This document shows, in pieces, positions 24,465 through 41,699 of a stretch of 64,000 nt of DNA. This stretch comes from Bdellovibrionales bacterium (GTDB lineage Bacteria; Bdellovibrionota; UBA1018), in contig JAEUWC010000020.1 of the NCBI GenBank assembly GCA_016786465.1, positions 1-64,000 on the forward strand, given 5' to 3'. The notes below the pieces were generated by a model. That model was not told the origin of the DNA. It saw nothing but the letters and a program-made list of their open reading frames with translations, and did no database searches. The position numbers and the translations under genes are program-made. The first letter of the stretch is position 1. Each line of letters opens with the position of its first letter.

Positions 24465-24467
24465 AAA

Positions 24468-25580
24468 TCAGATCCATCCTTTGTAGATGAAGAAGCCCGT
24501 CGCAAAGATGTTCAAAAGAGCAACTGGCAGCATGAACTTCCAGCCCAGGTCCATCAGCTGGTCGTAGCGAAACCTTGGAATTGTCCAGCGCACCCAGACA
24601 AATGTCCAAAGCCAGAAACCCGTCTTCGCGGTAAACGAAGCGATTTCGAATCCGACACGAAGAAGATCCGCTTGAAGCTGTGGCAAAGCCGCTGCCTGAA
24701 CGATCTGCCCGTGAAGCCAACCCATTCCCGGAAGCATTTGAAAGCCCCCGAAGTACAGAGTTGAAATCAAAGCCGATCCGACCGCCATGCTGATGTATTC
24801 GCCCATCATGAAAAGCCCGAACTTCATCGAGCTGTATTCCAAGTGGTAACCGGCGACGATTTCGGATTCTCCTTCTGGAAGGTCGAAAGGAAGGCGGTTG
24901 GTTTCAGCAAAAACGGCAGTCGTAAAAAGGAAGAAGCCAATGGGCTGAACAAAAATTCCCAGTTTTGGAATGGCAATCGGTCCTAGCTGAATCAGTGTCT
25001 GGGATTGTCCGGCAACGATGTCGGCCAGTTGAACTGATGAAAACGTCATGATGATCCCAACCAGGGCCAAGCCCATGGTCAATTCGTAGCTGATCATCTG
25101 CGCTGAAGAACGAAGGCTACCTAATAGAGCGTACTTATTGTTCGACGCCCATCCCGCCATGATGATCCCGTAAACTGCCAGGGAAGTGATCGAAAGGATA
25201 TAAAGGACGCCGACGTTCAGGTCCGCGGCTTGAAAATGAATCGTTCTTCCATCCATGACCAGATTTCCCGCAAACGGAATCACGGCAAAAGTCATGAAGG
25301 CCGGAACCACACAAAGAACCGGAGCCAACTGATAGTAAAAGCCCATGACGTGACCTGGAATGAAATCTTCCTTGGTCATCATTTTGATCGCGTCGGCTAG
25401 GGACTGAAGAAGCCCCAATGGTCCAATGCGGTTGGGTCCCAAACGGTTTTGAATCAAAGCCGATCCGCGTCTTTCGACCCAGACCATGATCGGCACCACC
25501 TGAAGCATGATCACGCAGATCAAGACCGGTTTTGCCAAAAAGATCACCCAGTCGATCATATCCATCGCTGCTAGATTCAT
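24468..25580 (-). CDS. nuoH: NADH:quinone oxidoreductase subunit H (set 1)
   Basis: 370 residues with about eight transmembrane helices forming the quinone chamber floor and the start of the acidic axis. Signature segments: LIQNRLGPNRIGPLGLLQSL, then FAETNRLPFDLPEGESEIVA and GYHLEYSSMKFGLF with all expected glutamates. I place the start at the ATG at 25580, which overlaps the nuoG stop (ATGA); the frame is open further upstream but that part lies inside nuoG. Confidence 0.96.
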   Translation of the reverse strand: MNLAAMDMIDWVIFLAKPVLICVIMLQVVPIMVWVERRGSALIQNRLGPNRIGPLGLLQSLADAIKMMTKEDFIPGHVMGFYYQLAPVLCVVPAFMTFAVIPFAGNLVMDGRTIHFQAADLNVGVLYILSITSLAVYGIIMAGWASNNKYALLGSLRSSAQMISYELTMGLALVGIIMTFSSVQLADIVAGQSQTLIQLGPIAIPKLGIFVQPIGFFLFTTAVFAETNRLPFDLPEGESEIVAGYHLEYSSMKFGLFMMGEYISMAVGSALISTLYFGGFQMLPGMGWLHGQIVQAAALPQLQADLLRVGFEIASFTAKTGFWLWTFVWVRWTIPRFRYDQLMDLGWKFMLPVALLNIFATGFFIYKGWI

Positions 25581-27010
25581 ACGCGTGCTCCTGCGGTCGC
25601 CGATGCCTGCGCACCGCTTTGGTTCGACCACATCATCAGAATTTCCGAAGTCGCTTTCGATTGACCCGGAGGCAATACGGCGCGCTTCAGTTTCTGTTCG
25701 ACGCCATTGAAGTTCACAATGGTTCCGTCTTTTTCAGAAAATCCGGCGCCGGGAAGAATGACCGAGAAACCGCCTTTGGTTTCGTCAGTGAAAACACCCA
25801 CGCCCACGGCTGGAACCTTTACGTCCTTCATCAACGCGGCGACGTTTGAACGTCCACCCGAAAACACGACTGCTGCCTGATATCCGGTTGCCGTGTTCGA
25901 ACCTTTTAGGCCCAGTTTTTCAGCACCATGAAGGTTTGCAGTCTTGCTTTTGCGTTTCAGGATTTTGTCCAAAGCCGCATCGTCGGCCGCCGAATTCACG
26001 CCAGGTGTTCCAAAATGAACCACCGTCGAATTGGGCAGGCTTTTCTGAGCAAACTGTATGACCATGCTGATTTCTTCTTGGGTCAAATCGGTTCCTACAA
26101 AAACAGCGGTCTTCTTGCCCTGGGTGACTGCGCGCGCTTCGGAAAGCGCCGCTGACCAATCCACGAAGGATCCGCTTTTTGTGGGTTTTGTGACGCGTGA
26201 AGGGTCTTGAAGGTGACGGTAGTTGAAACGACCTTCGTCACACATCCAGTACTGGTTCACGTCCATGTTCGTTCTAGGAATCGAACGATAGACCATGTTG
26301 GCTTCGTGCTGCAGTTCCATATTGCAACCGCGTGAACAGCCTTCGCAGATGGTTGCCGTTTTCTTCAGGAACCAAGAACGCTTCTTGAAACGAAAATCTT
26401 TCAGCGTCAGAGAACCGGTTGGGCAAATATCGGCATAATTGCCCGCATAATCGGTTTCCAAAGGACGTCCGTCGATGGTCGTGATTTCGGTATTGTTTCC
26501 GCGCTTCACAGCGACCATTTCGTGAATTCCTGCGACTTCGGTCCCGAAGCGAATGCATCGCGTGCAGTGAATGCAGCGGTTCATGTTCTTTTTAATCACT
26601 GGACCCATGTCTAGGTCGACATAGGTGCGGCGTTCTTCCATGTAGCGCATGTAAGAATCGCCGTACTTATAGGAAAAGTCCTGTAGATCGCATTCGCCCG
26701 CTTTGTCGCAAACCGGGCAATCCAGCGGGTGATTGATCAAAAGAAATTCCATGATCGCTTTTTGGTTCTGCTTCGCGCGTTCCGAACGCGTCTTGACGAC
26801 CATTCCATCGCCAGCAGGCGTTGAACATGCCGTCTGTAGTTTCGGCATTTTTTCGATTTCAACCGCACACATCCGGCACTGGGCCACGATGGACAATCCC
26901 GGGTGATAGCAGAAATAGGGAATCTCGATGCCGACCTTTCGGGCGACTTCGATTAGGTTTTCCCCTGCTTTGAATTCGACTTCGCGACCATCAATGGTGC
27001 ACTTGGGCAT
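25577..27010 (-). CDS. nuoG: NADH:quinone oxidoreductase subunit G (set 1), short form
   Basis: 477 residues, clearly shorter than the roughly 690-910 residues common in other bacteria. The N-terminal Fe-S part is complete: the [2Fe-2S] ligands (PYFCYHPGLS, QCRMCAVE, then TACSTPA), the His-Cys cluster (HPLDCPVCDKAGECDLQ), two [4Fe-4S] motifs (NRCIHCTRCIRFGTE, ADICPTGSLT) and a further cluster motif ICEGCSRGCNME. The molybdopterin-like C-terminal domain is mostly missing. The ATG at 27010 follows GGTGGAAG and overlaps nuoF by 20 bases; a TTG at 27037 is less likely. Confidence 0.95.
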   Translation of the reverse strand: MPKCTIDGREVEFKAGENLIEVARKVGIEIPYFCYHPGLSIVAQCRMCAVEIEKMPKLQTACSTPAGDGMVVKTRSERAKQNQKAIMEFLLINHPLDCPVCDKAGECDLQDFSYKYGDSYMRYMEERRTYVDLDMGPVIKKNMNRCIHCTRCIRFGTEVAGIHEMVAVKRGNNTEITTIDGRPLETDYAGNYADICPTGSLTLKDFRFKKRSWFLKKTATICEGCSRGCNMELQHEANMVYRSIPRTNMDVNQYWMCDEGRFNYRHLQDPSRVTKPTKSGSFVDWSAALSEARAVTQGKKTAVFVGTDLTQEEISMVIQFAQKSLPNSTVVHFGTPGVNSAADDAALDKILKRKSKTANLHGAEKLGLKGSNTATGYQAAVVFSGGRSNVAALMKDVKVPAVGVGVFTDETKGGFSVILPGAGFSEKDGTIVNFNGVEQKLKRAVLPPGQSKATSEILMMWSNQSGAQASATAGARV

Positions 27011-28265
27011 GTCTTCCACCTCGAATAAGAGCTTCAAAATCAGGACGGAACTTACGAACGAAGCTGGCGACCGGACCCGCAGCAGCGTCGCCCAAAGCGC
27101 AAAGTGTCTTTCCGGCGATGTTGTCGGTGATGTCCAGAAGCAGGGCTAGGTCCTGTTCTTTTCCGTGACCATGTTCAATTCTGTGAAGGATGTCTTCCAT
27201 CCATCGGCAGCCTTCGCGGCAGGGCGTGCACTGACCGCAACTTTCGTGAGCATAGAATTTGGTAATCCGCTTGATCAGCCGAACAATCGGATAAGAATCG
27301 TTCACGACCATCAAAGCCGCCGATCCCATCATCGATCCAACCTTCATCAGGGGTTCGATGTCATAGATCACGTCAATTTCATCCGCGGTCAAAACCGGCG
27401 CAGAAGATCCGCCTGGAATCACAGCTTTCAAAGGCCGGTCATCCAAAATTCCGCCAGCAACATCATAGATCAGCTGCCGGATGGTCATGCTGCCTGCGTT
27501 GATTTCATAAACGCCCGGCTTCTTGACGTGTCCTGAAATGGAAACCAAGCGGGTTCCACCTGATTTTTCCAATTTTCCAAGCTTCGCGAACCAGTCTCCG
27601 CCCTTGTTGATAATAAAGGGTACGTTCGTCAGCGTTTCCACGTTGTTGACGATGGTTGGACCTCCGAATGCTCCGGCTTGCGCTGGAAACGGCGGCTTCA
27701 CGCGGGGCTCTCCGCGCTTTCCTTCCAAAGAATTCAAAAGGCCCGTTTCTTCGCCGCAAATGTATGCGCCTGCGCCGCGATGTACGGTCAGATCAAAGTC
27801 AAATCCACTTCCTTGGATATTTTTACCTAAGTAACCTTTGGCGTAGGCTTCATCGATGGCTTCATCCAACAGCTTCGCTTCGCGCGTGTATTCGCCGCGA
27901 ATGTAGATGTAGCCCACGTGTGCACCGATTGCGAAACCGCCAATCACCATTCCTTCAATCAAAAGATGGGGCGTGTAGCGCATCAGATCGCGGTCTTTGA
28001 AAGTCCCTGGTTCCGATTCGTCGGCGTTGCAGACCAGGTACTTAGGTTTTGAAGCTTGCTTAGGAATAAATCCCCACTTCATCCCCGTGGGGAACCCGGC
28101 GCCGCCACGTCCGCGAACGTTCGACTTTTTCATCTCGTTGATGATGTCGTCGGGGGTCATCTTGAAGGCCTTTTTCAACGCCGTGTAGCCTTCCATCTGC
28201 TTCAGATAGTAGTCCAAGCCACGGCTCGAATCCTTGAAGTGCTGAATGTATAAGGTTTCGCTCAT
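26991..28265 (-). CDS. nuoF: NADH:quinone oxidoreductase subunit F (set 1)
   Basis: 424 residues, the NADH- and FMN-binding subunit. Visible motifs: GRGGAGFPTGMKWGF (NADH/FMN), NADESEPGTFKDRDLM and GAGAYICGEETGLLNSLEG (FMN), and ESCGQCTPCREGCRW plus a later Cys for the N3 [4Fe-4S] cluster. It overlaps nuoE (ATGA) and nuoG. Confidence 0.97.
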   Translation of the reverse strand: MSETLYIQHFKDSSRGLDYYLKQMEGYTALKKAFKMTPDDIINEMKKSNVRGRGGAGFPTGMKWGFIPKQASKPKYLVCNADESEPGTFKDRDLMRYTPHLLIEGMVIGGFAIGAHVGYIYIRGEYTREAKLLDEAIDEAYAKGYLGKNIQGSGFDFDLTVHRGAGAYICGEETGLLNSLEGKRGEPRVKPPFPAQAGAFGGPTIVNNVETLTNVPFIINKGGDWFAKLGKLEKSGGTRLVSISGHVKKPGVYEINAGSMTIRQLIYDVAGGILDDRPLKAVIPGGSSAPVLTADEIDVIYDIEPLMKVGSMMGSAALMVVNDSYPIVRLIKRITKFYAHESCGQCTPCREGCRWMEDILHRIEHGHGKEQDLALLLDITDNIAGKTLCALGDAAAGPVASFVRKFRPDFEALIRGGRHAQVHH

Positions 28266-28735
28266 GACAGTTTCTCCAGGATCTGATCCATCTTCTGGGT
28301 CGTCAGATTCTCGTGATAATCATCGTTCAGCATCATGGCTGGTGCGGTGCCACAGGCACCCAGACATTCTTCTTCGTACAAAGTGAACTTGCGATCTGCC
28401 GTGGTTTCACCCAAACGGATTCCCAGCTTCTTTTCACAGTGTTCGACCAGCCCTTCGGCGCCGCGAAGTGCGCAGGCGACGTTGGTGCAAACCTTAAGGT
28501 GGTATTTCCCAACGGGCTTTAGGTTGTACATCGTATAAAAGCTGGCCACTTCGCGAACCTGGGCCGGGTGAATGCCGATGTGCGCGCCGATTTCTTCCAT
28601 CACATCCGGCGGCAACCAGCCGATTTCTTCTTGGGCGGCATGAAGTGCGGGAAGAAGCAGGGCAACCTTAGTTGGATACCTGGGTTCCAGCTTTTTCATC
28701 CGGTCGTAAAATTTCGTAGACAGAATTTTAGCCAT
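28262..28735 (-). CDS. nuoE: NADH:quinone oxidoreductase subunit E (set 1)
   Basis: 157 residues, a thioredoxin-like subunit holding the N1a [2Fe-2S] cluster. The four ligands lie in CTNVAC and CLGAC. The helical N-terminal half (ALHAAQEEIGWLPPDVMEEI) matches the family. Two bases separate it from nuoD and it overlaps nuoF. Confidence 0.96.
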   Translation of the reverse strand: MAKILSTKFYDRMKKLEPRYPTKVALLLPALHAAQEEIGWLPPDVMEEIGAHIGIHPAQVREVASFYTMYNLKPVGKYHLKVCTNVACALRGAEGLVEHCEKKLGIRLGETTADRKFTLYEEECLGACGTAPAMMLNDDYHENLTTQKMDQILEKLS

Positions 28736-28737
28736 GA

Positions 28738-29994
28738 TTAGCGATCCAATTCTCCGGCGATGATGTTGATACTTCCTAGGGCGGCGACCATGTCACCGAT
28801 CTTTTCGCCTTCCACCATCGGGGTTAACCCCTGGAAGTGCCAAACCGACGGTCCGCGAATTCGCATGCGGTGAGCGCGCGGAGCCCCTTTGCTGACGATG
28901 TAAAAACCGACTTCACCGTTCGCGCCTTCGTTCACGGTATAGGCTTCGCCTTCTGGAACGTCGAAACCCGTCATGAAGAATTTGAAATGGTGAATCAGGC
29001 CTTCCATCGTGTTGTGAACGACGTCTTTGTCGGGAATTCGAACGCGTTTGTCTTCGGTCCAAATCGGTCCCTTTTTCATTTTGTCGCAGCACTGAGCGAT
29101 GATGTTCAGCGACTGCTTCACTTCTTCGATACGAACCAGGTAGCGATCGAATACGTCACCGTTCTTTGCAATCGGTACGTCGAATTCGACATCTTTGTAA
29201 AACATGTTGGGTTGATCGCGACGAAGATCGTGATCAATTCCAGCCGCGCGGGCATTCGGGCCCGAAAAGCTGTACTTCATACAGTCTTCTTTATCGAAGA
29301 CCGCTACGCCCACCGTGCGTTGACGCCAGATCTTGTTGGTGGTCAGAAGTTCATCCATTTCCTGAATGACTTTACGGGTACGCGCAACCCATGCCTTGAC
29401 TTCTTTTTCCCAACCTTCGGGCGCATCGTGCATCATGCCGCCAATGCGGGTGTAAGACGTGGTCAAACGCGCGCCACAAAGCTTTTCAATCAAGGTGTAG
29501 GCTTCTTCGCGTTGGTGAAACCCGTAAAGGAAGAAGGAAAACGCGCCCAAGTCGACGGCGTTAATTCCCAGGCAAATGAAGTGGTCGATCACGCGCGCCA
29601 ATTCACAACAGATCATGCGAAGCCAAACCGTGCGATCAGGAACCTGAATTCCCATCAATCGTTCAACGGCCATCGCATAGGTCACGTTATTGTTCAGTGC
29701 TGAACAGTAATTCAGACGATCGGTATAGACGACGAATTGGTGATAGGTGCGGTTTTCGCCCAACTTTTCTTTAGCTCGGTGGGTGTAACCAAACATGCAG
29801 TACGATTTTTCAATCGTTTCACCATTCAGCTTCGCCACCATGCGAAGTGCTCCGTGCATCGCAGGGTGGGTGGGTCCGATATTGATGATGACCCTTGAAT
29901 CATCCCAAATATCATCGGGATCGTGCGTGATGTTGTAGTGCTGGCTATTTCCCAGCCCTAAGCTTTCCGTAATTTTTTCTGCCCGAGTTTCCAT
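28738..29994 (-). CDS. nuoD: NADH:quinone oxidoreductase subunit D (set 1)
   Basis: 418 residues, the 49-kDa-type subunit that forms the quinone pocket with NuoB. The headgroup ligands expected from structural work on complex I are present: the second His of INIGPTHPAMHGALRM and the Tyr of TDRLNYCSAL. It ends with the typical GSINIIAGELDR. It starts 22 bases after nuoC ends. Confidence 0.97.
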   Translation of the reverse strand: METRAEKITESLGLGNSQHYNITHDPDDIWDDSRVIINIGPTHPAMHGALRMVAKLNGETIEKSYCMFGYTHRAKEKLGENRTYHQFVVYTDRLNYCSALNNNVTYAMAVERLMGIQVPDRTVWLRMICCELARVIDHFICLGINAVDLGAFSFFLYGFHQREEAYTLIEKLCGARLTTSYTRIGGMMHDAPEGWEKEVKAWVARTRKVIQEMDELLTTNKIWRQRTVGVAVFDKEDCMKYSFSGPNARAAGIDHDLRRDQPNMFYKDVEFDVPIAKNGDVFDRYLVRIEEVKQSLNIIAQCCDKMKKGPIWTEDKRVRIPDKDVVHNTMEGLIHHFKFFMTGFDVPEGEAYTVNEGANGEVGFYIVSKGAPRAHRMRIRGPSVWHFQGLTPMVEGEKIGDMVAALGSINIIAGELDR

Positions 29995-30016
29995 GAAAGT
30001 TTCTGCCCTCTGTGGC

Positions 30017-30598
30017 CTAGTCTAAAAGTTTTGGATCGATAGGTTCTGGTGTTGGAAAAAGCTGATAGCCGCGAAGCGGGTAATCCTTACGAAGAGGGTG
30101 TCCCACCCAGCGTTCGTCCATCAAGATGCGACGAAGGTCGGGGTGCCCGGTAAAACGAATTCCAAACATGTCCCAAACTTCGCGTTCTGCCCAGTTCGCG
30201 CCCGGCCACACGTTGACCAGCGTTGGAACTTCTTCGCCTTCGCGAACTTTGCACTTCACCCGAATCCGCGAATGTGACGTGAAAACCGCATACAAGTTGT
30301 AAACCACTTCAAACCTTGGGTCGGATTCTTCGTCCACTGCAGTTAGGTCGGCCAGAAATTCATAGCGGAACCCTTCTTGGTCCTTCATGAACTTCAAAAC
30401 TTCAATGACCTGGTCTTTTTTCACGTAGATCACAGGCACTTCAACTAGATCCACGCCCGGCATTTTGACCGCTTCGATGGTTCCGCCAAACTTTGCCTTC
30501 AGTTCTGCGACCTGTTTCTTCCAAAGGTCTGCGAACTGTTCGCGCATTCCGCCGTAAATCGTCGGTACTGGTGTACGGATGTCTTCGTTGCCGATCAT
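30017..30598 (-). CDS. nuoC: NADH:quinone oxidoreductase subunit C (set 1)
   Basis: 193 residues from the ATG at 30598, which overlaps the nuoB stop (ATGA); the frame is open for 43 more codons upstream but that lies within nuoB. The conserved 30-kDa-subunit block is plain: [20 protein letters not shown], then [17 protein letters not shown]. It is a structural subunit of the peripheral arm. Confidence 0.96.
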
Positions 30599-31113
30599 TG
30601 TGCACCCTGCGCTTTCAATTGGGCGATCTGATTTCGTGCGCGAATCTGTGCGCGCGTCGTTCCCTTCATGATGTCGTCCTGTAAACGAAGTAGGGCGTGA
30701 AGAACGCCTTCCGGGCTTGGAGGACAACCTGGCACAAACACATCCACCGGAATAATCGTGTCGATTCCTTGGGTGACGCTATAGACGTTAAAAATTCCGC
30801 CCGAAGACGCGCAAGCCCCCATCGACATCACCCACTTGGGTTCTGACATTTGGTCATAGATGTTTCGCAATACGGGAGCCATCTTTGCGTTCACGATCCC
30901 AGCGACGATCATCAAATCGGCTTGGCGTGGTGAAAAGCGCATGGCTTCTGCGCCGAAACGTCCGATGTCGTAGTCAGCAGCAAAGGTCGCCATCATTTCG
31001 ATCCCGCAACAACTGGTTCCAAACGGAAGTGGCCAAAGAGCGTTCTTCCGGCCCCAATTGACGAAATCTTCTAAGCGCGTCGTTAAGTAAACTGATGAAC
31101 CGTCTTTACCCAT
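30595..31113 (-). CDS. nuoB: NADH:quinone oxidoreductase subunit B (set 1)
   Basis: 172 residues, carrying the terminal N2 [4Fe-4S] cluster. Ligands: the adjacent Cys pair in [11 protein letters not shown], Cys in [10 protein letters not shown] and Cys in VPGCPPSPE. The [14 protein letters not shown] segment that lines the quinone site is intact. It lies three bases after nuoA. Confidence 0.97.
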
Positions 31114-31116
31114 AGA

Positions 31117-31476
31117 TTAATCCCACTCAAGGGCCCCTTTACGAAGTACGTAGAAATAACCCAGCAGAAGAATGCCGACGAAGACGGCCATTTCCGCCAA
31201 AATAAATGTGCTGACCGAAAGGTATTCTCGAAACACGACTGCCCAAGGAAAAAAGAAAACCGCTTCGACGTCGAAAAGAAGGAAAAGAATCGCGACCAAA
31301 TAAAAGCGAACCGAGATTCGTTGTTTGGCGTCTCCGATCGGGGGAACACCACACTCGAACGGACTATCTTTTTTACGATTGGGAATTCTGGGTCCCAAAA
31401 GATGGGTCAAGAGCAAGACTGCTCCGCCGATGACCGCTCCGATGGTCATCATGACCAGGACTGGTATGTAGTTCAT
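31117..31476 (-). CDS. nuoA: NADH:quinone oxidoreductase subunit A (set 1)
   Basis: 119 residues with three transmembrane helices. The functional loop with its conserved Cys is present (PFECGVPPIGDAKQRISVRF), followed by FYLVAILFLLFDVEAVFFFP and the end motif RKGALEWD. It is the first gene of the canonical operon; the 75-base gap to the second set upstream leaves room for a promoter. Confidence 0.96.
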   Translation of the reverse strand: MNYIPVLVMMTIGAVIGGAVLLLTHLLGPRIPNRKKDSPFECGVPPIGDAKQRISVRFYLVAILFLLFDVEAVFFFPWAVVFREYLSVSTFILAEMAVFVGILLLGYFYVLRKGALEWD

Positions 31477-31551: not shown

Positions 31552-33030
31552 TTACTTCAATTGACGTAGCGAGTCGGTAACCCAAACAAGAATGGGATGC
31601 GTGAAGATACTGAGCACCAAAAGTGGCAGGCCGAAGGAAACGAAAATGGACCATAGGCGTCGCGTCGCGACTCCGTTTTCCGCGACGCGGGCAGTGCTGA
31701 AATCTCCAACTAGCGCAAAACACAGTCTAGAAATCGCAATCCAGCTTAAAGCCCACGAAAAAAGCGCGACCGCGGCCAGAGCACCCCAGTGATGATCCAC
31801 CGCAGCGCCCACCAAAGAAAAGCGGCCAAAGAATCCCCCCAGCGGTGGGATCCCCACAAAGCAACCCAAGAACAGAATTAATGCGGCGCTTTCGCCTGTG
31901 TATTTGCGAAGCATTCCTTTCCATTCATCGATCTGATCTGTCGATGTTTCGTCCACGAAACGGGCGATGACAAAGTAACAACCCGAAAGGGCAAAAAGTT
32001 CGACCAACAGGGAAAAAAGCGTCGCGCCCAGCGCCTGGGTGTCCAAGACCAAAAGCCCCAGCAAAACAAATCCTGTTTGCGACACCACCAAGGAACCCAA
32101 AAGCCTTCTAGCCGAATTCTGGCGAACCGCCAGAACCGAACCAAAGACCAGGCTCAAGCCCGCAACCCAAGCCAAAATCTGTGGCCAAGGCAGCGCTTCC
32201 CAAGGGGTCCAAGCCGACGAAGTTTCATTATAGTTTGAAAACAAAGTGATCCAGATTCGAATCGCTGCCGAAAACCCGCCCACGCGTGTCGCCGTCGCCG
32301 CAAATGAAGAAATCGGCGTCGGAACACCCTGAAGAACGTCGGGCGCCCAGGTAAAACTGGGGAACGCCGCGAACTGAAAGCAAAGTCCGGAAGACAACAA
32401 AGCAAAAGAAGCCCAGGCCGAAAGCTTATCCAACGGATTCTTCTGCAGGGTTTCTCGAATCAAACTGAGCTGCGTTTGTTCAGTTGCCGCAAAAAGAACC
32501 AATACCCCCAACGCAAAGAGGACCGAAGCCAGCATCGAAAATCCAAGGAACTTGAACGACGCTTCAGTTGAAGAAACATTTCGAACCCCAAACGAACCCA
32601 AGAAATAAATCAAAGCGTTCGAAAGCTGAAATGCGACCCAGGTCAGAACCAAATCATTCGAAGCCGCAATCAAAGAATACGCCGCTGTGGATGCCACCAA
32701 GAAAGCCAGAAGTTCCGTCTTTCTTTCTGCAGGCACTTCTTTGGATCGGGTCACGTGAATCGTGGCCAACCCGGTCAGTACGATAAAGAAAAGCCGAAAG
32801 AACGTCGTCAGAGGATCAATCCAAATGACCCCGGAAAATGCGGATTTAATCTGAGGACCAAATCCCGCCGTCGCTAGAATCGTCTGAATAGCCGCACCCA
32901 AAAGGCCCAGAACCGCCGTCGCCGTGACCAAGCGGTAGCGTTCGCCGTAGTAGCCAATTTCGCTAAAAATCAGTCCGCCCACCGTGAAGGCCAAGAAAAG
33001 TTCGGGCAGTATGGCAATGAAATCTTCCAT
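31552..33030 (-). CDS. nuoN: NuoN-like subunit of second complex I set (divergent)
   Basis: 492 residues, about fourteen transmembrane helices. It aligns without gaps to the set 1 NuoN at the key sites, but the catalytic residues differ. SNDLVLTWVAFQLSNALIYF has Gln where set 1 has the TM5 Glu (FIALELMS). LCFQFAAFPSFTWAPDVLQG has Gln for the TM7 Lys and Phe for the His. FAATATRVGGF has Arg for the TM8 Lys. Fold and length are preserved, so the protein is under constraint but should not translocate protons in the known way. Last gene of the second set, 44 bases after nuoM2. Confidence 0.85.
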   Translation of the reverse strand: MEDFIAILPELFLAFTVGGLIFSEIGYYGERYRLVTATAVLGLLGAAIQTILATAGFGPQIKSAFSGVIWIDPLTTFFRLFFIVLTGLATIHVTRSKEVPAERKTELLAFLVASTAAYSLIAASNDLVLTWVAFQLSNALIYFLGSFGVRNVSSTEASFKFLGFSMLASVLFALGVLVLFAATEQTQLSLIRETLQKNPLDKLSAWASFALLSSGLCFQFAAFPSFTWAPDVLQGVPTPISSFAATATRVGGFSAAIRIWITLFSNYNETSSAWTPWEALPWPQILAWVAGLSLVFGSVLAVRQNSARRLLGSLVVSQTGFVLLGLLVLDTQALGATLFSLLVELFALSGCYFVIARFVDETSTDQIDEWKGMLRKYTGESAALILFLGCFVGIPPLGGFFGRFSLVGAAVDHHWGALAAVALFSWALSWIAISRLCFALVGDFSTARVAENGVATRRLWSIFVSFGLPLLVLSIFTHPILVWVTDSLRQLK

Positions 33031-33074: not shown

Positions 33075-34580
33075 CTACTTAATTGTTGAAAGCAAAGTGA
33101 GAACGGTTGGGCGGATCAAGTCGATCAGGGGCTTTGGATAAATCCCGAACCAGATGACCAAAAAGACCAGCGGTAAAAGGTAAAGCTTTTCTCGAAAATT
33201 CAAGTCTTCCATGACCGAGGAATCTTGAGCCTTCCCCAGAAAAACGTGACGATACATGGTAAAAAAGTAGAAGGTCGCCATGAAGAACGCGCCCACGGTC
33301 ACCACGACTGCAATCGGGTGAACAGAATAACTTCCCATCACCAAAAGTGAATGTCCGATGAAACCTGAAACGCCGGGAAAACCCAGAAGTGTCCCGGTCA
33401 TGATCGCTGCCACAACCGCTACACCCGGCGCCTGGACTGCAATTCCACCCAATGTTCCCGTGACTGTTGTTCCAGTTCCTTCCTTAAGAAAGTCAGTAGA
33501 TCCCTTTCTTTCGTTCAAGACATTGATGAAAAGTCCGAAGCCAGCGATTCCCAGCCCCAGCGACAAAAGCTGGAAGACCGCGCCAACGATGCCCACTGAA
33601 TTCAGGGATCCATAACCCACAAGCGCAATTCCCACTTCGCCGATACAAACAAACGATAGCAGGGTTCGAAGATTCTTTTGCGAAAGTGCTCCCAGTCCTC
33701 CGGCAATCAAATTCAAAAGACCCACCGCCACGATTCCCTGCGATGTCGCGGAAATCGTTTCAGGAAAAAGGGAAAACGAAAGCTTCACAAAAAGGTAGCT
33801 GGCTACCGCGGTCATGACTGACGAAACCGCGACGAAAACCGAAAGGGGCGATTGTTGCGCAAAAACCGTAAACCACCCGTGAAGCGGCCAGATCGGCGTG
33901 CGAAGCGCCAATCCTAAGCTCATCAGGCTGAACGCCAGCAGCGGAACCGGCAGATCCCAGTCCAAAAAGTGAAAGGTTTTTCCTGCGAACTTTCCTCCGG
34001 CCAGTTCCTTTAGTGAAAACGTGTGGGGTTCAAAGGAATAGTAAATCAGAATCAACGCACCAAAGAAGAAGGCGTTTCCAATCGCTGAAACCACAAGCGT
34101 TCTAAAGGATGCAGATTCACGGTCGTCTCCTCCCCAGATTCCAATCAGGAAGTACATCGGTACTGCACTTAGCGCCCAGAAGAAGAAGACCAAGAAAAGA
34201 TCCTGCGCGCAGACGGCCCCTAAAAGGGATGCCTGAAGAATCAAGAAAAGCGCGTGCATCCCGGCGACACCCTTTTTTTGCTTCCATTCTGCGGCGATCA
34301 AAACGGGCATGACCCACGAAATCAAAAGAACCAAAAGTGCATTCAATCCATCCATTCCGACTTCGTAGGTGATCGAATAGGACCCAACCCATGGAAGAAT
34401 TTCTACTGCTTGAAGATCACTTACCGCCGGGTCCATCCCCAGAATCAACGCTGTTCCGCAACATGCACTTAAGATGCTTGCAGCAAGCGCCGCCCATTTT
34501 CCCCGCCCCGGAAGAAAAATCTGAGAAATCGCACCCAAGAAGGGCAGAAAAATCATCCAGCTGATTAGGTTCAAACTCAT
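33075..34580 (-). CDS. nuoM: NuoM-like subunit of second complex I set (divergent)
   Basis: 501 residues. The subunit identity is clear from PMYFLIGIWGG, TPIWPLHGWF and the overall helix pattern. Key residues are changed relative to set 1: FFFWALSAVPMYFLI has Ala for the TM5 Glu (FWEAMLIPMYFLI), GLALRTPIWPLHGW has Arg for the TM7 Lys, the LPDAH motif is gone and the TM8 Lys position reads Ala in VMTAVASYLFV. It overlaps nuoL2 by ATGA. A membrane-arm structural role is inferred. Confidence 0.87.
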   Translation of the reverse strand: MSLNLISWMIFLPFLGAISQIFLPGRGKWAALAASILSACCGTALILGMDPAVSDLQAVEILPWVGSYSITYEVGMDGLNALLVLLISWVMPVLIAAEWKQKKGVAGMHALFLILQASLLGAVCAQDLFLVFFFWALSAVPMYFLIGIWGGDDRESASFRTLVVSAIGNAFFFGALILIYYSFEPHTFSLKELAGGKFAGKTFHFLDWDLPVPLLAFSLMSLGLALRTPIWPLHGWFTVFAQQSPLSVFVAVSSVMTAVASYLFVKLSFSLFPETISATSQGIVAVGLLNLIAGGLGALSQKNLRTLLSFVCIGEVGIALVGYGSLNSVGIVGAVFQLLSLGLGIAGFGLFINVLNERKGSTDFLKEGTGTTVTGTLGGIAVQAPGVAVVAAIMTGTLLGFPGVSGFIGHSLLVMGSYSVHPIAVVVTVGAFFMATFYFFTMYRHVFLGKAQDSSVMEDLNFREKLYLLPLVFLVIWFGIYPKPLIDLIRPTVLTLLSTIK

Positions 34581-36565
34581 AGAAGACCTCGTGTGACGAT
34601 CAGGGCCACCACCAAGGTGATCCCCGCAAAAAGGGAAAGGTACCAGTACTGCTGAAGCTTACCGCCTTGGATTCTTTGAACGGCCCAAGCCGCGCCCGCG
34701 AATCCCCGCGCCGTGCTCCATTCGATTCGCTTTCGAAGTTCCGAATCCGCACGTCCAAAACCCTGACCCAAAATTCGTAAGACCCATTTTGTGGCGCCGG
34801 GAATCGACTTCTTCCACAGAAACCCGTCGATCAAGTTTTCAACTGCTGAACCGAAGCGAACTAAAAGATTCATCAGTCCGTTACCCAGGCGGTCCATTCC
34901 AATTTGTTCAGAAATGAACCCGGCAAAGCGCGGGGATGACTGGACCCATTTTTCAAAGCGATCGGGGTTTCCACGAGTCATCCAGTAAGAAATCGCGAAA
35001 CTGAGAACGAAGACGCCCCAGTAGACGCCCATTCCTTCTGCGGAATTGGCGTCAAGCTGGATACTTTTTTGGCCAAAAAGTTGGTCCAAAAGCGAAACTG
35101 AAACCTGATCCATAAGGCCCGGAACAATTTCGCCGGTCATGGCCCCGGTCCAAATCCAAGCCATTCCCAAGATAAACAGGTAGAAAGGGCCCAGAGCCGT
35201 CATCCACTTTACGTAAACCGGCGCCGGCGCACCCGAAGCGGCTGGCTTGCTTCCAAAGTTCATCCGAAAGCCGCAGATGGCAACCATAAGGTGGGCCACT
35301 GAAAAGAAAGCCACGGCACCCCATCCATCTGACGCCAGAATCGCAAGGTAAGATTTTAGGAAACCCGGTGATGAAACAAAGCCAAAGAAGCCGGCAATCA
35401 GAAGACCGGAAATAAAAAGTGCGACCGTTGAAAAGGTTTCAGACGAAACCCGTGAACTGTCGGGTTCTGCGGTGGCCACTGACGAAAAGGAAAGGACCAT
35501 CGCGGCTGCCAAAGCAATCAGATAGGCCCCTAAAAGAATCGATGCCGTGATCCAAGCACTGGAAAAGAATCCCCCGGCCATGCCCAAACTAAGGACTGCC
35601 GCCATGGTCTGAAGAAAGTAAGCTTCCTTCTTCAGTTGCGACATCGCGGAAAGTGCCAAAAGAAATGCCGACGAAAGACAAACCCAACCCATCCAATGAG
35701 AAACACCGATTCCACGAAAAAGCGGATCCAGTCGAACCAAGGTCATCATCGCTACCAGAGAAGGAAGGACCACCCCAAAAAGGGTCCTTTTCACCAGTGA
35801 CTGGCGGCTGTTCATTTGGGACCATCCCAACCACGGAAAACCCCCAGACAAGAACAAAGTGCCCATCAACAAAAAGACACCGCCCACTTTGACCGCTATG
35901 GCGTTGGGATAGCTATCCAACCACTGAATCAGGCTTTTGTTCCAAGAAAGTGGAATTCCAGAACCGTGAACCATGACTGCGCCCACTACCAGAAGACCCA
36001 GGGCAATTCCTTTTTCCCGAATGAATCGGGTCGCCAAATCGGCTTCGCGTTCCAGTTCCCAATTACTTGAAAATGCGGTCCATCCCGAAAGAATGACCCA
36101 GCTTCCACCCAGTGCCAGCGTCCAGAAGTTTGCGGCGCTGGTGCAAAGAAGAACTCCCATGAAACCCAGAATCAGGGACGCATGCGATTTTTCAGGACGT
36201 TCTTCAAAGTGAAGAATTTCCTGATTGATCAAAAGAAGAAGAAAAATGATCGTCGCCAGACTCCAGACGGCCAGTTGGAATGGGTCTCGAATGAACGCAA
36301 TCGTCGGTCCCATTGGACCCGCGGCCTTATCTAGGTTTGCAGAATCAACCCAGCTTAAGGCCCAATGACTGACCGACCAACCCGCCTCGATCTGGACGCG
36401 CCAGGAAAGAATCAGGAAGGCCATCTGAACCACCATGAAAATCCAAACCAACCAATCGCCCTTGCGGGAAATTCGATCGCCAAAAAAGAAAAGCGTCAGG
36501 AAGAAAATCCATCCCAGAACAAATCCCGAAAGTGTGAATAGGTTTTCGACAGAAAGCGTTCCCAT
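34577..36565 (-). CDS. nuoL: NuoL-like subunit of second complex I set (strongly divergent)
   Basis: 662 residues, nearly the same length as set 1 NuoL, with many hydrophobic helices and a final single helix (YWYLSLFAGITLVVALIVTR) that matches the lateral-helix anchor. Assignment relies mainly on length, position between nuoK2 and nuoM2 and helix pattern. The FLGWEGVGLCSYLLIG signature is replaced by ALGGSWVILSGWTAF (no Glu), and the LPDAMAGPTPVSALIHA signature is replaced by LGWSQMNSRQSLVKRTL. It starts at an ATG two bases after nuoK2. Confidence 0.75.
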   Translation of the reverse strand: MGTLSVENLFTLSGFVLGWIFFLTLFFFGDRISRKGDWLVWIFMVVQMAFLILSWRVQIEAGWSVSHWALSWVDSANLDKAAGPMGPTIAFIRDPFQLAVWSLATIIFLLLLINQEILHFEERPEKSHASLILGFMGVLLCTSAANFWTLALGGSWVILSGWTAFSSNWELEREADLATRFIREKGIALGLLVVGAVMVHGSGIPLSWNKSLIQWLDSYPNAIAVKVGGVFLLMGTLFLSGGFPWLGWSQMNSRQSLVKRTLFGVVLPSLVAMMTLVRLDPLFRGIGVSHWMGWVCLSSAFLLALSAMSQLKKEAYFLQTMAAVLSLGMAGGFFSSAWITASILLGAYLIALAAAMVLSFSSVATAEPDSSRVSSETFSTVALFISGLLIAGFFGFVSSPGFLKSYLAILASDGWGAVAFFSVAHLMVAICGFRMNFGSKPAASGAPAPVYVKWMTALGPFYLFILGMAWIWTGAMTGEIVPGLMDQVSVSLLDQLFGQKSIQLDANSAEGMGVYWGVFVLSFAISYWMTRGNPDRFEKWVQSSPRFAGFISEQIGMDRLGNGLMNLLVRFGSAVENLIDGFLWKKSIPGATKWVLRILGQGFGRADSELRKRIEWSTARGFAGAAWAVQRIQGGKLQQYWYLSLFAGITLVVALIVTRGLL

Positions 36566-36566: not shown

Positions 36567-36866
36567 TTAACCTTTGAGATTCTCCAATTCGTCTAAAGTC
36601 GCCTTAGTGCGAAGGTAGAAAAGACGTACTGAAAACGAAAAGCCACCAATCAGCGGAATTACGCCGCCTAAAAGAAAAATCAGGCCCAAAAGCTGCCCTT
36701 TGACCAAGACTTCGGATTCCTTTCCTACAACCACCGCGGCAAGTGCAGCACCCAGTGCCGTGGTTTGAAAGCCTAGAAGAATCCCGAGAATGGTTCGACG
36801 CGTGAGCATCGCAAGGATTCCCAACGAGAAAAGTCCGATCGCAGTCATTAAGGGTGCCTGATTCAT
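36567..36866 (-). CDS. nuoK: NuoK-like subunit of second complex I set (divergent)
   Basis: 99 residues, three hydrophobic helices. A gapless alignment with set 1 NuoK is anchored by the shared Arg-Arg-x-Ile-Leu at the start of TM2 and Gly-Gln before TM3. It shows Gln for the TM2 Glu (LLGFQTTALGAAL against LMCIELMLNAVNL) and Pro for the TM3 Glu (GGVIPLIGG against VAAAESAVG). Both buried carboxylates that carry protons are therefore absent. It overlaps nuoJ2 by four bases. Confidence 0.8.
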   Translation of the reverse strand: MNQAPLMTAIGLFSLGILAMLTRRTILGILLGFQTTALGAALAAVVVGKESEVLVKGQLLGLIFLLGGVIPLIGGFSFSVRLFYLRTKATLDELENLKG

Positions 36867-37411
36867 GGAATGGGTTCCCCTTTGCGGCGCGGACGGGCGA
36901 TGACCCCCGAGGCCACCAAAATCAAGAAAAGTGAAAAACCAAGAAGTTCCAAAGTCAGAAAGTGATGACTGACCATTTCGTCACCCAATAGGTCATTTGC
37001 TGGACGTTTCTGTTCGGTGGGTTCACTTGGTGCGGGAAGTTCCACAACCTTAGGAGCGCGATGAGATTCACGGTAACGGATTGCGTTTTCGATTCCGGAA
37101 TAGATGAAGTAACCCATCACGGCAACCGTCACTAAACCCACCACCTTCTTCACGATGGCTTTGCGATCTTCGTCGTTGGATTCGGAACGAAATTCACCAA
37201 ACATCACCGAATAAAAGACGAATCCAATGGTGGTCGTTGTCGAAATAATCCAGACCGTGACGGCCAAGAATTCAGACCCCAAGTCTAAAGCGACCCCGCC
37301 CATTCCCAAACCACAGACCCAAAGAGCCAAAATGGCGCGACGAATATCGTGTGTCCAAGATGAAATCAGCGCCGAAACCAAGGTGACTGCGCAACAGATC
37401 CAAGTGATCAC
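36863..37411 (-). CDS. nuoJ: NuoJ-like subunit of second complex I set (divergent)
   Basis: 182 residues with about five hydrophobic helices, the last being FLTLELLGFSLFLILVASGV, very close to the equivalent TM5 of set 1 (LPFELTSVLLLVGIVGSV). The TM3 hinge motif VYAGAIMVLF is replaced by WIISTTTTIGF, so the Tyr and Gly of the pi-bulge are lost. It starts with GTG at 37411, overlapping the nuoI2 stop (GTGA). Confidence 0.75.
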   Translation of the reverse strand: MITWICCAVTLVSALISSWTHDIRRAILALWVCGLGMGGVALDLGSEFLAVTVWIISTTTTIGFVFYSVMFGEFRSESNDEDRKAIVKKVVGLVTVAVMGYFIYSGIENAIRYRESHRAPKVVELPAPSEPTEQKRPANDLLGDEMVSHHFLTLELLGFSLFLILVASGVIARPRRKGEPIP

Positions 37412-37947
37412 AGAACCACCTCGCCATCATGTTCTTCTTCTTGCCGGGCCTTTGCCCACTTCACCCTTTGTTCTTGGGTGACGCGTCCACGACCAAAGCT
37501 GGCGACCAAATCCGTTGACGCATAGACCGCACTTTCAAATTGATGACTGTGAATCAAGGACTGGGGCTGACAAACTTCAACGCAAAGACCACAGAAAGTG
37601 CAGCGTGCGGAATCAATGTCGAACACGGATACCCAGACTTTCTGAGAATCGGGTCCCTTTTCATTTTCAACGGTGATGCATTTAACCGGACAAATCTGTT
37701 CACAGTCTCGGCAACCCGTGCACCGTTCAATGTCGTTAAAAAGAAGACCCCTGGATCGTGCTGGTAGATCTTCTGGCGTTTTAGATGAAACCGGGTCTGG
37801 GTACTGTTCCGTGACTTCCTTTCTTAATTCACCTGACTTGAAACCCACCAGGTACGGAAGTGAAGTCTTTACCGACCCTAGAACCGACGATAATCCCCGG
37901 AAAACAGCTTTCAGATACTGGGCTAAACCCGAAAAAACGGAAATCAA
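37408..37947 (-). CDS. nuoI: NuoI-like ferredoxin subunit of second complex I set
   Basis: 179 residues if started at the TTG at 37947, which overlaps the nuoH2 stop (TTGA) and has GGAGG six bases upstream; a TTG at 37983 is open but has no such signal. Both [4Fe-4S] ligand sets are complete: IERCTGCRDCEQICPVKCI and ARCTFCGLCVEVCQPQSL (Gln before the Pro in the second). Electron transfer through clusters equivalent to N6a/N6b should therefore work, in contrast with the damaged proton path of the membrane subunits. Confidence 0.9.
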   Translation of the reverse strand: MISVFSGLAQYLKAVFRGLSSVLGSVKTSLPYLVGFKSGELRKEVTEQYPDPVSSKTPEDLPARSRGLLFNDIERCTGCRDCEQICPVKCITVENEKGPDSQKVWVSVFDIDSARCTFCGLCVEVCQPQSLIHSHQFESAVYASTDLVASFGRGRVTQEQRVKWAKARQEEEHDGEVVL

Positions 37948-39038
37948 GGTGACCCTCCGTTCTTTGCGGTCCAAAATGCCCAAATCGCAGTACCTGCAAG
38001 TGCTGCCAACGAAAGCGGGCTAAGAACTTTCCAAGACAAATCCGTGATCTGATCGGAACGAATCCGTGGTGTCACACGCGCCAAAATCGACACGAAAATC
38101 ATCAGCCCAAAAGTCTTCATCAGAAGCAGAACGGATTCGACCATTTGGATGGCAAAGCCTGAAGTGTTCTCGGTTAGCCAGGCTTGCACACCATCGGGAA
38201 CTTCCCAACCACCTAAGAAAAGCACCGCAGTGATCGTTGCCCAAAGAAAGAATCCGTAGTGACGTCCCAGCCGAAAAAGGGCCAGCTGGGTGCCGTGAAG
38301 GTGGGATGAAACGCCCCCGTGAATATCCTGAACGGAAAGTCCTCCGTCAAACGGAGCGATTCCCATCACAACCAAACCACTGGCTAGGAAGCAGAAAAAT
38401 GAAATTGGCTCGAACGGGCTATCAAAAACACCCCAAGCTAGAATTCCCGCGCCCTGGGAATCCGCAATGTCGCTCCAGAAAAAACTTCCCGCACGAACCC
38501 CGACCGCAATTAAAGCCGCGATCGCGGGCAGGGCCCCGGCCAATGCTTGTGAAGCCGCGCGAATTCCACCAAACCAACCCGGAATCGACTTTTGGCTTAG
38601 CCCCAAAAGCATCGTTCCCATCGCAATGACCAGTGACGCCCAAAACGGAAGAAACGCGCTCATTTCGGTGTTGATCAAAAGAAGCAAGGATCCCAAAGGA
38701 AGAACAGCGACGGTCGAATAAAGCGCCATCGTATGAAGACCCAGCCAGATCTTTTCGTTCATCCCCAGCTTCGAATCGACCTGTTTCTGAAGCAGTTTCA
38801 CCAAATCGGCAAATGGCTGAAGAAGTCCCAGGGGTCCTACGCGGTTAGGTCCGACGCGCGCCTGAAGATCGGCGCCGACTTTTCTAGCTAAATAATTCAC
38901 CGCCGCGCCGCTGGGTACGACCACCAAGGTGTAAACCAAGGACAAGACCAAAACGGCTACGACCGATTCCGGCAAGAAATCGGGAAGTCCAATGATCTGC
39001 TTCCACTTTTCTGCCCAGTGGTTTGCTTCAGGTGTCAT
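37944..39038 (-). CDS. nuoH: NuoH-like subunit of second complex I set (divergent)
   Basis: 364 residues with about eight transmembrane helices. The N-terminal signature is well kept (LQARVGPNRVGPLGLLQPFA). The acidic-axis segment is not: set 1 FAETNRLPFDLPEGESEIVA reads LVVMGIAPFDGGLSVQDIHG here, and HLEYSSMKF reads SHLHGTQLA. Five of six glutamates are replaced and one is Asp. The ATG overlaps the nuoD2 stop (ATGA). It should still be able to build a quinone-chamber-like fold. Confidence 0.87.
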   Translation of the reverse strand: MTPEANHWAEKWKQIIGLPDFLPESVVAVLVLSLVYTLVVVPSGAAVNYLARKVGADLQARVGPNRVGPLGLLQPFADLVKLLQKQVDSKLGMNEKIWLGLHTMALYSTVAVLPLGSLLLLINTEMSAFLPFWASLVIAMGTMLLGLSQKSIPGWFGGIRAASQALAGALPAIAALIAVGVRAGSFFWSDIADSQGAGILAWGVFDSPFEPISFFCFLASGLVVMGIAPFDGGLSVQDIHGGVSSHLHGTQLALFRLGRHYGFFLWATITAVLFLGGWEVPDGVQAWLTENTSGFAIQMVESVLLLMKTFGLMIFVSILARVTPRIRSDQITDLSWKVLSPLSLAALAGTAIWAFWTAKNGGSP

Positions 39039-40159
39039 CGGTCGACCTCGGCAATTCCTAGATCCAGGCTTGCAAGAATCACGGGAAGATCTTCCATGCG
39101 GCTTCCGCGAAGAATTTCAGGAAGAATTGCAATCGCGGCCATTGAAGGAACCCGAAACTGGACACGGCTGGGGCGATCGCCTCCTTCGCTGACCAAATGA
39201 CAACCTAGGGTGCCCCGAGGGGATTCGACTTTAATGTACGCTTCACCGGGTTGTGGCTTGACTGGCTTCGACACGGGCTGGCTTAAAAAGGATCCGCCAG
39301 GAATGGATTCAATCACTTGCTTTAGAATGTCTGTACTTTGACTGATTTCGCGAAGGCGAATCAGAAAGCGACTATGTACGTCGCCATTTCCATCATTTTC
39401 AACCAGCACGGGAAAATCCAAAAGCTGGTAACCACTGTAAGGTTCTGACTTTCGCGTATCCGTTGAAAAGCCCGAAGCCCTTGCGTTAGGCCCCGTCAAC
39501 CCATGTGCCAGAATCTGTTCCCGGGAAATCACGCCGATTCCGCGAGATCTTTTCAAGAAAGCGTAATTGAACGAAAAAAGATCGTTGTATTCTTTCAGGC
39601 GAATTTTCAGAACTTCGCAAATATCCAAGACGCGCTCTAAGAATCCGTCAGTCACATCTGCGGTGACACCGCCCAGACGAAAAAAATTCAGTGAAAACCG
39701 CGCGCCTGTTAGAAGCTCAAACTGATCCAGGATTCTTTCACGATCGCGAAGCGCATAGTGAAAAAGGGTTTCGGCCCCCACGGCTTGCGCCATTCTCGCT
39801 AGAAATCCCAGGTGGCAGGAAACCCGATTCAGTTCGTTGACCAATACGCGAATGCTTTGTGCGCGAACCGGAACTGCAATCTCGGCGACTTCTTCGATCG
39901 CAAGCGCAACCGCCATTTCGCCAAAAGACGCCGCTTCTGGATCCAGTCGATCCGCATACATCAATGCCGATGACCAAGGGTGCAGTTCAAACGTCTTTTC
40001 AAGGCTTCGATGAATGAACCCAATTTCTGTTTTCGTTTCGGCGATGACTTCTCCGTCTAGGTTCAAATTCAAACGAAACGGGCCAGGAAGCGCCTGGTGG
40101 TAGGGTCCGATTCCCCAGTACGCCAAATCGGTCGCCAAGGATTCACCGTGAGTGCTCAT
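39035..40159 (-). CDS. nuoD: NuoD-like subunit of second complex I set (quinone ligands missing)
   Basis: 374 residues. The family is clear from LTGARFSLNFFRLGGVTADV, LTGPNARASG, DVHSRFLIRLREI, SPRGTLGCHLVSEG and the last residues LGIAEVDR; there are no NiFe-hydrogenase Cys pairs. The two residues that bind the quinone headgroup in studied complexes are changed: HPAMHG is HQALPG (second His to Pro) and the Tyr of DRLNY is Pro (YADRLDPEAAS). It overlaps nuoC2 by ATGA. Confidence 0.9.
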   Translation of the reverse strand: MSTHGESLATDLAYWGIGPYHQALPGPFRLNLNLDGEVIAETKTEIGFIHRSLEKTFELHPWSSALMYADRLDPEAASFGEMAVALAIEEVAEIAVPVRAQSIRVLVNELNRVSCHLGFLARMAQAVGAETLFHYALRDRERILDQFELLTGARFSLNFFRLGGVTADVTDGFLERVLDICEVLKIRLKEYNDLFSFNYAFLKRSRGIGVISREQILAHGLTGPNARASGFSTDTRKSEPYSGYQLLDFPVLVENDGNGDVHSRFLIRLREISQSTDILKQVIESIPGGSFLSQPVSKPVKPQPGEAYIKVESPRGTLGCHLVSEGGDRPSRVQFRVPSMAAIAILPEILRGSRMEDLPVILASLDLGIAEVDR

Positions 40160-40737
40160 GGTTCGACCCCAAAGGCTGCGCCCATTCCCGTTTCAACCGG
40201 CGGACTGAAGTCGGATCCGTATTCATCCGGGATGCTGTGCCCGACAGGTTTAAAATGTGAAACCCCGTAAAAGGAAGTCGGAAACACGTAGGATTTCCGA
40301 AGCGGGTACCCAATCCAGTCTTCTGGAAGGACGTATCGCCCGGCAATCTGATTCCCATTGAAGACCACGCCAAAAAGGTCTGAAATTTCTTTTTCAAATT
40401 CGCGCGCCATCGGCCAGATCGTCGTGACTGAATCGATCGAAGCCGTAGAATCCGCGTCCTTTGGCGTTAACGATGCTCGAAGGACCAGGCGGGTCGGTGA
40501 ATCCAAATCGCGGATAAAATAGGAAAGAACCAGGGCTTGATTCAATTCCATGGCAGACAAGTTTTCTAGCCAGGTCATCTTGAAGCTCACGTCTTCAAAT
40601 AGTTTTCTTGCGGCGGCACGAATAGACTTTGCTTACACCCAAACGGTCGTGATCTCGGATTTCCCGAAGGGTTGCATTTCCAGGAAACCGGGAAGTTCAA
40701 CGGCTTTAATTTTTCGCTTCAGCTCGTTGATTTCCAA
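40156..40737 (-). pseudogene. nuoC: NuoC-like subunit of second complex I set, interrupted by in-frame TAA
   Basis: A frame of 193 sense-equivalent codons runs from a TTG at 40737, which has AGGAG eight bases upstream inside nuoB2, to the stop at 40156. This is exactly the length of the set 1 NuoC. It is interrupted once, at codon 35, by TAA (40635-40633), with no frame change: ...SEITTVWV, stop, AKSIRAAARKLFEDVSF... Both sides read as NuoC. A restart at the GTG at 40590 or ATG at 40578 would give a 140-144 residue protein holding the conserved block (EKEISDLFGVVFNGNQ, PEDWIGYPLRKSY). Nonsense mutation, read error, re-initiation and read-through are all open. Confidence 0.82.
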
Positions 40738-41191
40738 GAATCTTCTCCTGTAGGGCGATGATGCCGTTCATGATGGCTTCGGGCCGAGGCGGACAGCCGG
40801 GTACATAAATATCCACTGGAATGATGCGATCCACGCCTGGAACTGCCGAATAACTGAATTCCGGCGAAAAAGGACCGCCGCAACTGGCACACGAACCCAG
40901 CGCTAGCACGTAACGGGGTTCAAGCATTGAATCATAGATTTTCTTTAAGTTCGGAACGGCTTTGTAAGAAACCAATCCCGAAATGATCAAAAGGTCGGAC
41001 TGACGTGGGTCGGGCTGCGGAATGGCCCCGAAGCGTTCCAAGTCATAACGAGCGCCCATGGTTTGCAGAAGTTCGTCTGCACAACATCCCGATCCGGTCG
41101 AAGTAAACCAAAGGGATCCCGCCCTGGACCAATCCAAAAGTTTCCCAATCGTAGAAAGGTAGATGCCGCTGACGGCGCTACTTGCGCTCAT
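40706..41191 (-). CDS. nuoB: NuoB-like Fe-S subunit of second complex I set
   Basis: 161 residues from the ATG at 41191, preceded by AAGGAA. All four ligands of the N2-type [4Fe-4S] cluster are present: the Cys pair in TGSGCCADELLQT, Cys in ALGSCASCGGPF and Cys in YVPGCPPRPEA. The segment DPRQSDLLIISG is like set 1. It overlaps nuoA2 by 14 bases and nuoC2 by about 30. It is the best conserved member of the set. Confidence 0.93.
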   Translation of the reverse strand: MSASSAVSGIYLSTIGKLLDWSRAGSLWFTSTGSGCCADELLQTMGARYDLERFGAIPQPDPRQSDLLIISGLVSYKAVPNLKKIYDSMLEPRYVLALGSCASCGGPFSPEFSYSAVPGVDRIIPVDIYVPGCPPRPEAIMNGIIALQEKILGNQRAEAKN

Positions 41192-41699
41192 CCAAGTTCC
41201 TTCCTTCGTCGTGAAAAGTTTGAATCCAATCCAAGTCACCCTTCCTGGCCGAATACAATAGGCCCAAGCCTGCGAACCCAACCATGGTCAAAACCGCAAT
41301 CAAAACCTTCTTTTCCTGGGATGAAACCAAGATTCCCACGAGCGGAATCAGAATCACCATCAATGTCAGCAAAAGAACGGCTGCGTTTGCGCTTAAGAAA
41401 AAGCGCGTGTTCATCCGCCTGCCTAAAGCGCCATCCGAACGGTAAACCGTAGGCGAAGAAAACTGCGAGGCTCCGTCTGAACCTGGATTTGAAAAACCCG
41501 AAGAATCCATCCCCCCGACTTCCGCAGTTCCGACCGCGGAATTCACTGACGAAGGATCCATCTTCTGAGCCGCTCCCTTTTTTCGAAGCGACTTGCCGAA
41601 GATTTCTAGGACGAGCGGGATCAACAGCGAACTGATCGCTGACAAAAAGATCACGTAGTACTTGGTCCACCCGCTTGAATCGGGCACCCAGCCGTCCAT
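41178..41699 (-). CDS. nuoA: NuoA-like membrane subunit of second complex I set (unusual loop)
   Basis: 173 residues from the ATG at 41699, which follows GGAGGG; the frame is open further upstream but that part covers the promoter and the start of mfd. Identity is supported by position ahead of nuoB2, three hydrophobic helices and the end motif SARKGDLDWIQ, like RKGALEW in set 1. The first loop is about 60 residues of Ser/Gly/Asn-rich sequence and lacks the conserved Glu-Cys-Gly. The TM2 segment with FDVEA is also absent. The assignment is therefore tentative. Confidence 0.65.
   Translation of the reverse strand: MDGWVPDSSGWTKYYVIFLSAISSLLIPLVLEIFGKSLRKKGAAQKMDPSSVNSAVGTAEVGGMDSSGFSNPGSDGASQFSSPTVYRSDGALGRRMNTRFFLSANAAVLLLTLMVILIPLVGILVSSQEKKVLIAVLTMVGFAGLGLLYSARKGDLDWIQTFHDEGRNLDERK

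Follow-up and report, generated by a model that had tools for sequence, protein, structure and literature searches.

A second nuo gene set beside complex I

The window, a stretch of 64,000 nucleotides from a Bdellovibrionales bacterium, carries 11 nuo genes on the minus strand between ~41699 and 31552, in the order nuoA2 B2 C2 D2 H2 I2 J2 K2 L2 M2 N2 (set 2), and next to them a canonical complex I operon (set 1; Table 1). Every core subunit among NuoA-D and NuoH-N has a homologue in the one set-2 operon. nuoE, nuoF and nuoG are absent from it; the nearby E1F1G1 belong to set 1. Four-base overlaps were observed at C2/D2, D2/H2, I2/J2, J2/K2 and L2/M2, nuoN2 and nuoA1 are separated by 75 bp, and a terminator scan of this gap called none on the coding strand. 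These features suggest that both sets are carried on one transcript. An mfd-type gene (41798-45370) is oriented divergently to nuoA2, the first gene of set 2, and the two likely share a promoter region.

Table 1. The nuo genes of the window, with coordinates and features of the products
Gene	Position	Strand	Features
nuoA2	41178..41699	minus	173 aa, start inferred; Asp79/Glu81-type acids and ECG Cys missing; long linker after TM1
nuoB2	40706..41191	minus	PSST-type; four N2 cysteines (CC, C, C); start inferred
nuoC2	40156..40590	minus	30-kDa-type; overlaps nuoD2 by 4 bp
nuoD2	39035..40159	minus	49-kDa-type subunit, 374 aa; His59 to Pro, Tyr108 to Pro, Asp160 to Ala; first His kept
nuoH2	37944..39038	minus	E-loop LPEGESEIVAGYHLEY to DGGLSVQDIHGGVSSHLHG; tunnel-mouth QxRxGPNR retained
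nuoI2	37408..37950	minus	two [4Fe-4S] motifs (N6a, N6b), 8/8 Cys; alternative TTG start extends to 37983
nuoJ2	36863..37411	minus	TM3 Tyr59 lost
nuoK2	36567..36866	minus	Glu36 to Gln, Glu72 lost
nuoL2	34577..36565	minus	profile match to NuoL; pump residues lost
nuoM2	33075..34580	minus	Glu144 to Ala, Lys234 to Arg, Lys265 to Thr, Glu407 to His
nuoN2	31552..33030	minus	Glu133 to Gln, Lys217 to Gln, Lys247 to Arg, Lys395 to Arg
nuoA1-N1 (set 1)	18072..31476	minus	canonical, 14 genes; directly downstream of nuoN2; catalytic residues intact

NuoL2 is highly divergent, and searches against NCBIfam models and PDB sequences returned no match for it. A profile of its orthologs matched NuoL over nearly the full length (probability 98.5), and the identities of A2, J2 and K2 were likewise confirmed by profile. 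NuoD2 scored 356 bits against the NCBI NuoD model, just missing the cut-off of 360, and lies above the Pfam cut-off for the 49-kDa family. Its AlphaFold model, computed as a single chain (pLDDT 89.9, pTM 0.90), matches NuoD/49-kDa chains with TM-scores of ~0.9. The protein has no CxxC motif and its best family matches are NuoD models, which separates it from the group 4 [NiFe] hydrogenases, whose large subunit binds NiFe through two CxxC motifs. Some relatives (L045-L048) encode hydrogenase-like or energy-converting-hydrogenase-related large subunits. In NuoA2 the linker after TM1 is rich in serine and glycine, and NuoA1 is without it.

The cluster ligands of set 2 were examined across its relatives. 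All four N2 cysteines are present in 37-38/38 NuoB2 proteins, with the adjacent CC pair in 37/38, so the intact N2-type site that an earlier note on this DNA had placed beside NuoD2 is there. NuoI2 retains the eight N6a/N6b cysteines in 35-36/36 members. The QxRxGP residues at the tunnel mouth of NuoH2 were found in 30/30, and the tunnel-mouth residues overall in 25-30/30. Judged from sequence, the Fe-S wire and the overall build are conserved in set 2, and the residues of quinone chemistry and pumping are not. The sole exception among the 38 NuoB2 proteins is that of L061, in which the CC pair reads CGC (SCGCWAEL). Most relatives also have an extra cysteine after RFG in NuoB2, beside the N2/quinone region, where the window has alanine.

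Quinone head-group, channel and pump residues

Structural studies of the mammalian enzyme identify His59, Tyr108 and Asp160 as the residues that bind the quinone head-group and donate protons to it (PMC13083836). The NuoD2 reading frame (translation of 39035-40159, on the minus strand, which the earlier note left unstated) contains GPYHQALPGPFRL and YADRLDPEAASF, in which the HPxxHG loop is HQALPG and the DRxxY motif is DRLDP. Alignment with Thermus Nqo4 and with the window's own NuoD1 places proline both at the second histidine of HPxxHG (bovine His59, Nqo4 His38) and at the tyrosine of DRxxY (bovine Tyr108, Nqo4 Tyr87), in agreement with the two substitutions reported in the earlier note. 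The Asp160 equivalent (Nqo4 Asp139) is alanine in the alignment to Nqo4, a third loss from the triad that was absent from that note.

Residue counts across 39 genomes with set 2 were set against those in their own set 1 and in set 3, a third, canonical 11-subunit nuo set found in relatives (L031-L035, L037, L039; L036, L161). His59 and Asp160 are kept in none of the 39 NuoD2 proteins (0/39 each) and Tyr108 in 6/39. His59 is replaced by proline in 30/39, and the first histidine of the loop is retained in 25/39. In contrast, the whole triad is present in 31/31 NuoD1 and 9/9 NuoD3. NuoD proteins from other phyla have the His and Tyr in 51/51 and the Asp in 50/51, the remaining one having Glu. Because the loss recurs in 39 proteins against canonical NuoD1 and NuoD3, chance or sequencing error is excluded. 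The proposal that canonical quinone reduction would be impaired fits the published roles of these ligands (PMC13083836) and the condition of MBS (membrane-bound sulfane sulfur reductase), which is without the same His/Tyr pair (PMC7684303).

Five residues, Glu75, Glu81, His134, Cys320 and His321, are specific to NuoD2 in the core group and are candidates for a new site, perhaps one that binds a metal. NuoD2 of family f5 also keeps His134 and Glu75, and not Cys320 or His321. In one relative (L068/L022, genome G028) an in-frame TAG stop splits nuoD2 into two ORFs, which is either a real break or an assembly error.

Membrane-subunit residues were placed by motif and are numbered by the E. coli convention. 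Set 2 has lost nearly all of the E-channel carboxylates of NuoH, NuoK and NuoA with the NuoJ tyrosine, and nearly all of the TM5 Glu, TM7 Lys, TM8 Lys/His and TM12 Lys/Glu of NuoL/M/N. Glu36 and Glu72 of NuoK2 are kept in 0/21 (Glu36 is Gln in 19/21 and Glu72 is Gln in 18/21), and NuoJ Tyr59 and the NuoA acids in no set-2 member counted. The E-loop glutamates of NuoH2 are mostly lost, the SYE glutamate being kept in none of the listed members. NuoM2 has lost Glu144 and Lys234 throughout (0/28 each; Lys234 is Arg in 27/28) and keeps Lys265 and Glu407 in 2/28 each. In NuoN2, Glu133 is kept in 2/27 and Lys217 and Lys247 in 0/27, with Lys247 changed to Arg in 21/27; the exception is Lys395 in TM12, which is kept or Arg in 24/27. 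NuoL2, whose alignment is weak at ~24% identity, is without equivalents of Glu144, Lys229, His254, Lys342, Lys399 and Asp400, and Lys229 is Gln in 16 members. Sets 1 and 3 keep nearly all of these residues, with variation in set 3 at NuoM Lys234 and, in two cases, at NuoK Glu72; most of the fetched stretches stop before the set-1 M and N genes, and the set-1 counts for these two are only one or two.

Recurrent substitutions in set 2 are Glu to Gln, Lys to Gln, Lys to Arg and His59 to Pro. Many of the lost residues thus have polar or like-charged substitutes that would preserve the fold. The earlier note had treated the change as local to one pocket, a view that does not survive the class-wide loss of E-channel and antiporter residues. 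Since the whole complex is altered across a whole class, a different electron acceptor alone is insufficient as an explanation.

Distribution, selection and origin

The 39 genomes in which set 2 was found span eight families (f1-f8), all within a single class of Bdellovibrionota. Named relatives are 'Oligoflexia' and 'Bdellovibrionales' bacteria assembled from metagenomes, as are most of the relatives. Wherever a contig was long enough to show it, across f1-f8, set 2 lies directly upstream of set 1. Other Bdellovibrionota families that were sampled (f9, f22, f23 and others) yielded no altered NuoD and kept the full triad.

The set-2 reading frames are intact in most of the 39 independent genomes. 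dN/dS was ~0.04-0.28 for set-2 genes with estimable dS, a range from which I2 of L055/L170 is left out, its ORF having been paired wrongly; L049/L167 has the same fault in its A1 row. Synonymous sites are saturated in many pairs, and this in itself shows strong constraint on the proteins. Because these genes are under purifying selection, set 2 is not in decay.

The families differ in what they have lost. Members of f2, f7 and f8 are without His59 and Asp160 yet keep Tyr108, and in f2 some of the NuoH loop and a few channel residues of NuoM and NuoN survive as well. The triad was therefore probably lost in steps, with Tyr disappearing after His and Asp, and the f2, f7 and f8 complexes may have some activity, given Tyr108 and the few channel residues of f2. 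Membrane subunits of f5 (L041-L044) are either shorter or no longer recognisable, with a NuoM2-like protein of 322-327 aa and a protein of 280 aa at the NuoL2 position; B2, D2 and I2 are recognisable.

A NuoD tree groups NuoD2 as a single clade (support 100) nearer to canonical lineages other than NuoD1. A sister relationship of NuoD2 and NuoD1 is nevertheless not rejected (p-AU 0.197), and nuoD2 may still have arisen by duplication of the adjacent nuoD1.

Possible role of the second set

Canonical 14-subunit complex I, represented by set 1, has a homologue for each of the eleven set-2 subunits; unlike set 1, set 2 is without the NADH module, the quinone triad and the E-channel and antiporter charges. 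It resembles the 11-subunit complex I-like enzymes (NDH-1 core, for example in Desulfitobacterium and other anaerobes) in having A-D and H-N, in missing E/F/G and in its clusters N6a, N6b and N2. However, canonical 11-subunit sets such as set 3 keep the quinone and pump residues, as NuoD of other phyla keeps the quinone residues, and set 2 does not. Ferredoxin has been proposed to supply electrons to the Desulfitobacterium 11-subunit enzyme, whose role in growth is blocked by the quinone-site inhibitors rotenone and piericidin (PMC11238625).

Domains of 2-oxoacid:ferredoxin oxidoreductase lie within a few kb of set 3 in most of the L031-L035, L037 and L039 contigs, and set 3 in these relatives would appear to be a complex I fed by ferredoxin and distinct from set 2. 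A search of the genome of the window for such a domain gave no match, which argues against the usual ferredoxin donor. Ferredoxin reduced by 2-oxoacid oxidoreductases was thus rejected as the donor of set 2; in several relatives the genes for these enzymes adjoin set 3 instead.

On balance, judging by sequence and one single-chain model, we lean towards reading nuoA2-N2 as an ancient, repurposed, non-pumping paralogue of complex I, an accessory beside the complex I of the same operon, with an intact wire and no canonical quinone chemistry. That set 2 neither reduces quinone in the canonical way nor pumps is very probable from its residues. It would be a complete 11-subunit paralogue, a Q-module and membrane arm with no NADH module, rebuilt and not lost. 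The [4Fe-4S] clusters N6a, N6b and N2 would form a wire into a membrane-anchored scaffold. Electrons could arrive at N2, but the residues for holding and protonating quinone are gone from the pocket beside it, and most steps of the route that leads on to the antiporters are broken.

The retained parts of the pocket can be read differently. The QxRxGP tunnel mouth in 30/30 NuoH2, the intact N2, the first loop histidine in 25/39 NuoD2 and the Tyr108 of f2, f7 and f8 are what might be expected of an uncoupled oxidoreductase that does not pump and delivers electrons through the tunnel to quinone or another lipid-soluble acceptor bound in some other mode. This is unlikely, as most NuoD2 proteins have all three head-group residues replaced, with proline at two key positions, and set 2 encodes no electron donor module.

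Strict linkage to set 1, and the rapid drift of the membrane subunits, which f5 has in shortened form alongside still recognisable B2, D2 and I2, would also suit a purely structural partner, in which the clusters are only structural and the complex helps canonical complex I to assemble, to stay stable or to be organised in the membrane. We consider such a partner quite unlikely because the eight N6 and four N2 cysteines are near-invariant over class-level divergence, which exceeds the needs of a scaffold.

MBS offers a precedent for chemistry at the cluster itself. It shares with set 2 the absence of equivalents of Nqo4 His38/Tyr87, and polysulfide is reduced at its proximal cluster (PMC7684303), so a sulfur compound or another small substrate might be reduced directly at the terminal [4Fe-4S] cluster of set 2. 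The proximal cluster of MBS is altered, however, with one cysteine beyond ligating distance and a reported three-ligand site, whereas the complex I-type CC pair is kept in 37/38 NuoB2. MBS also pumps ions, set 2 is without the pump residues, and D2 is nearest to NuoD and not to hydrogenase-type subunits. An MBS-like activity is accordingly improbable. A decaying duplicate or assembly artefact, to which the fast evolution of L2 and the stop codon in D2 of G028 might point, is refuted for the group as a whole by frames intact in most of the 39 genomes, dN/dS well below 1 and recurrence of the same substitutions.

An accessory of canonical complex I is favoured because set 2 is strictly linked to it. 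More speculatively, set 2 could accept electrons, store them or sense redox state on behalf of canonical complex I, and it might share NuoE1F1G1 or form one supercomplex with it, again as speculation. Operon linkage alone is no proof of physical association between the two sets. Only tentatively do we suggest an ancient, class-wide relative of complex I that is free of energy conversion, neither reducing quinone nor pumping ions, that conducts electrons or senses redox state in the membrane, and that is physically coupled to the canonical enzyme.

We found no description of a complex with an intact wire but without quinone ligands and pump residues in the part of the literature covered. According to a review of complex I and its relatives, pumping and coupling seem to follow core principles that are surprisingly conserved throughout the family (PMC7613608). 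Set 2 keeps the parts list and the electron wire and is without nearly every residue that those principles need. It is thus a natural experiment, in which the kept residues would serve fold, assembly and clusters and the lost ones quinone chemistry and pumping, and it raises the testable question of what use a silent complex I is to its host.
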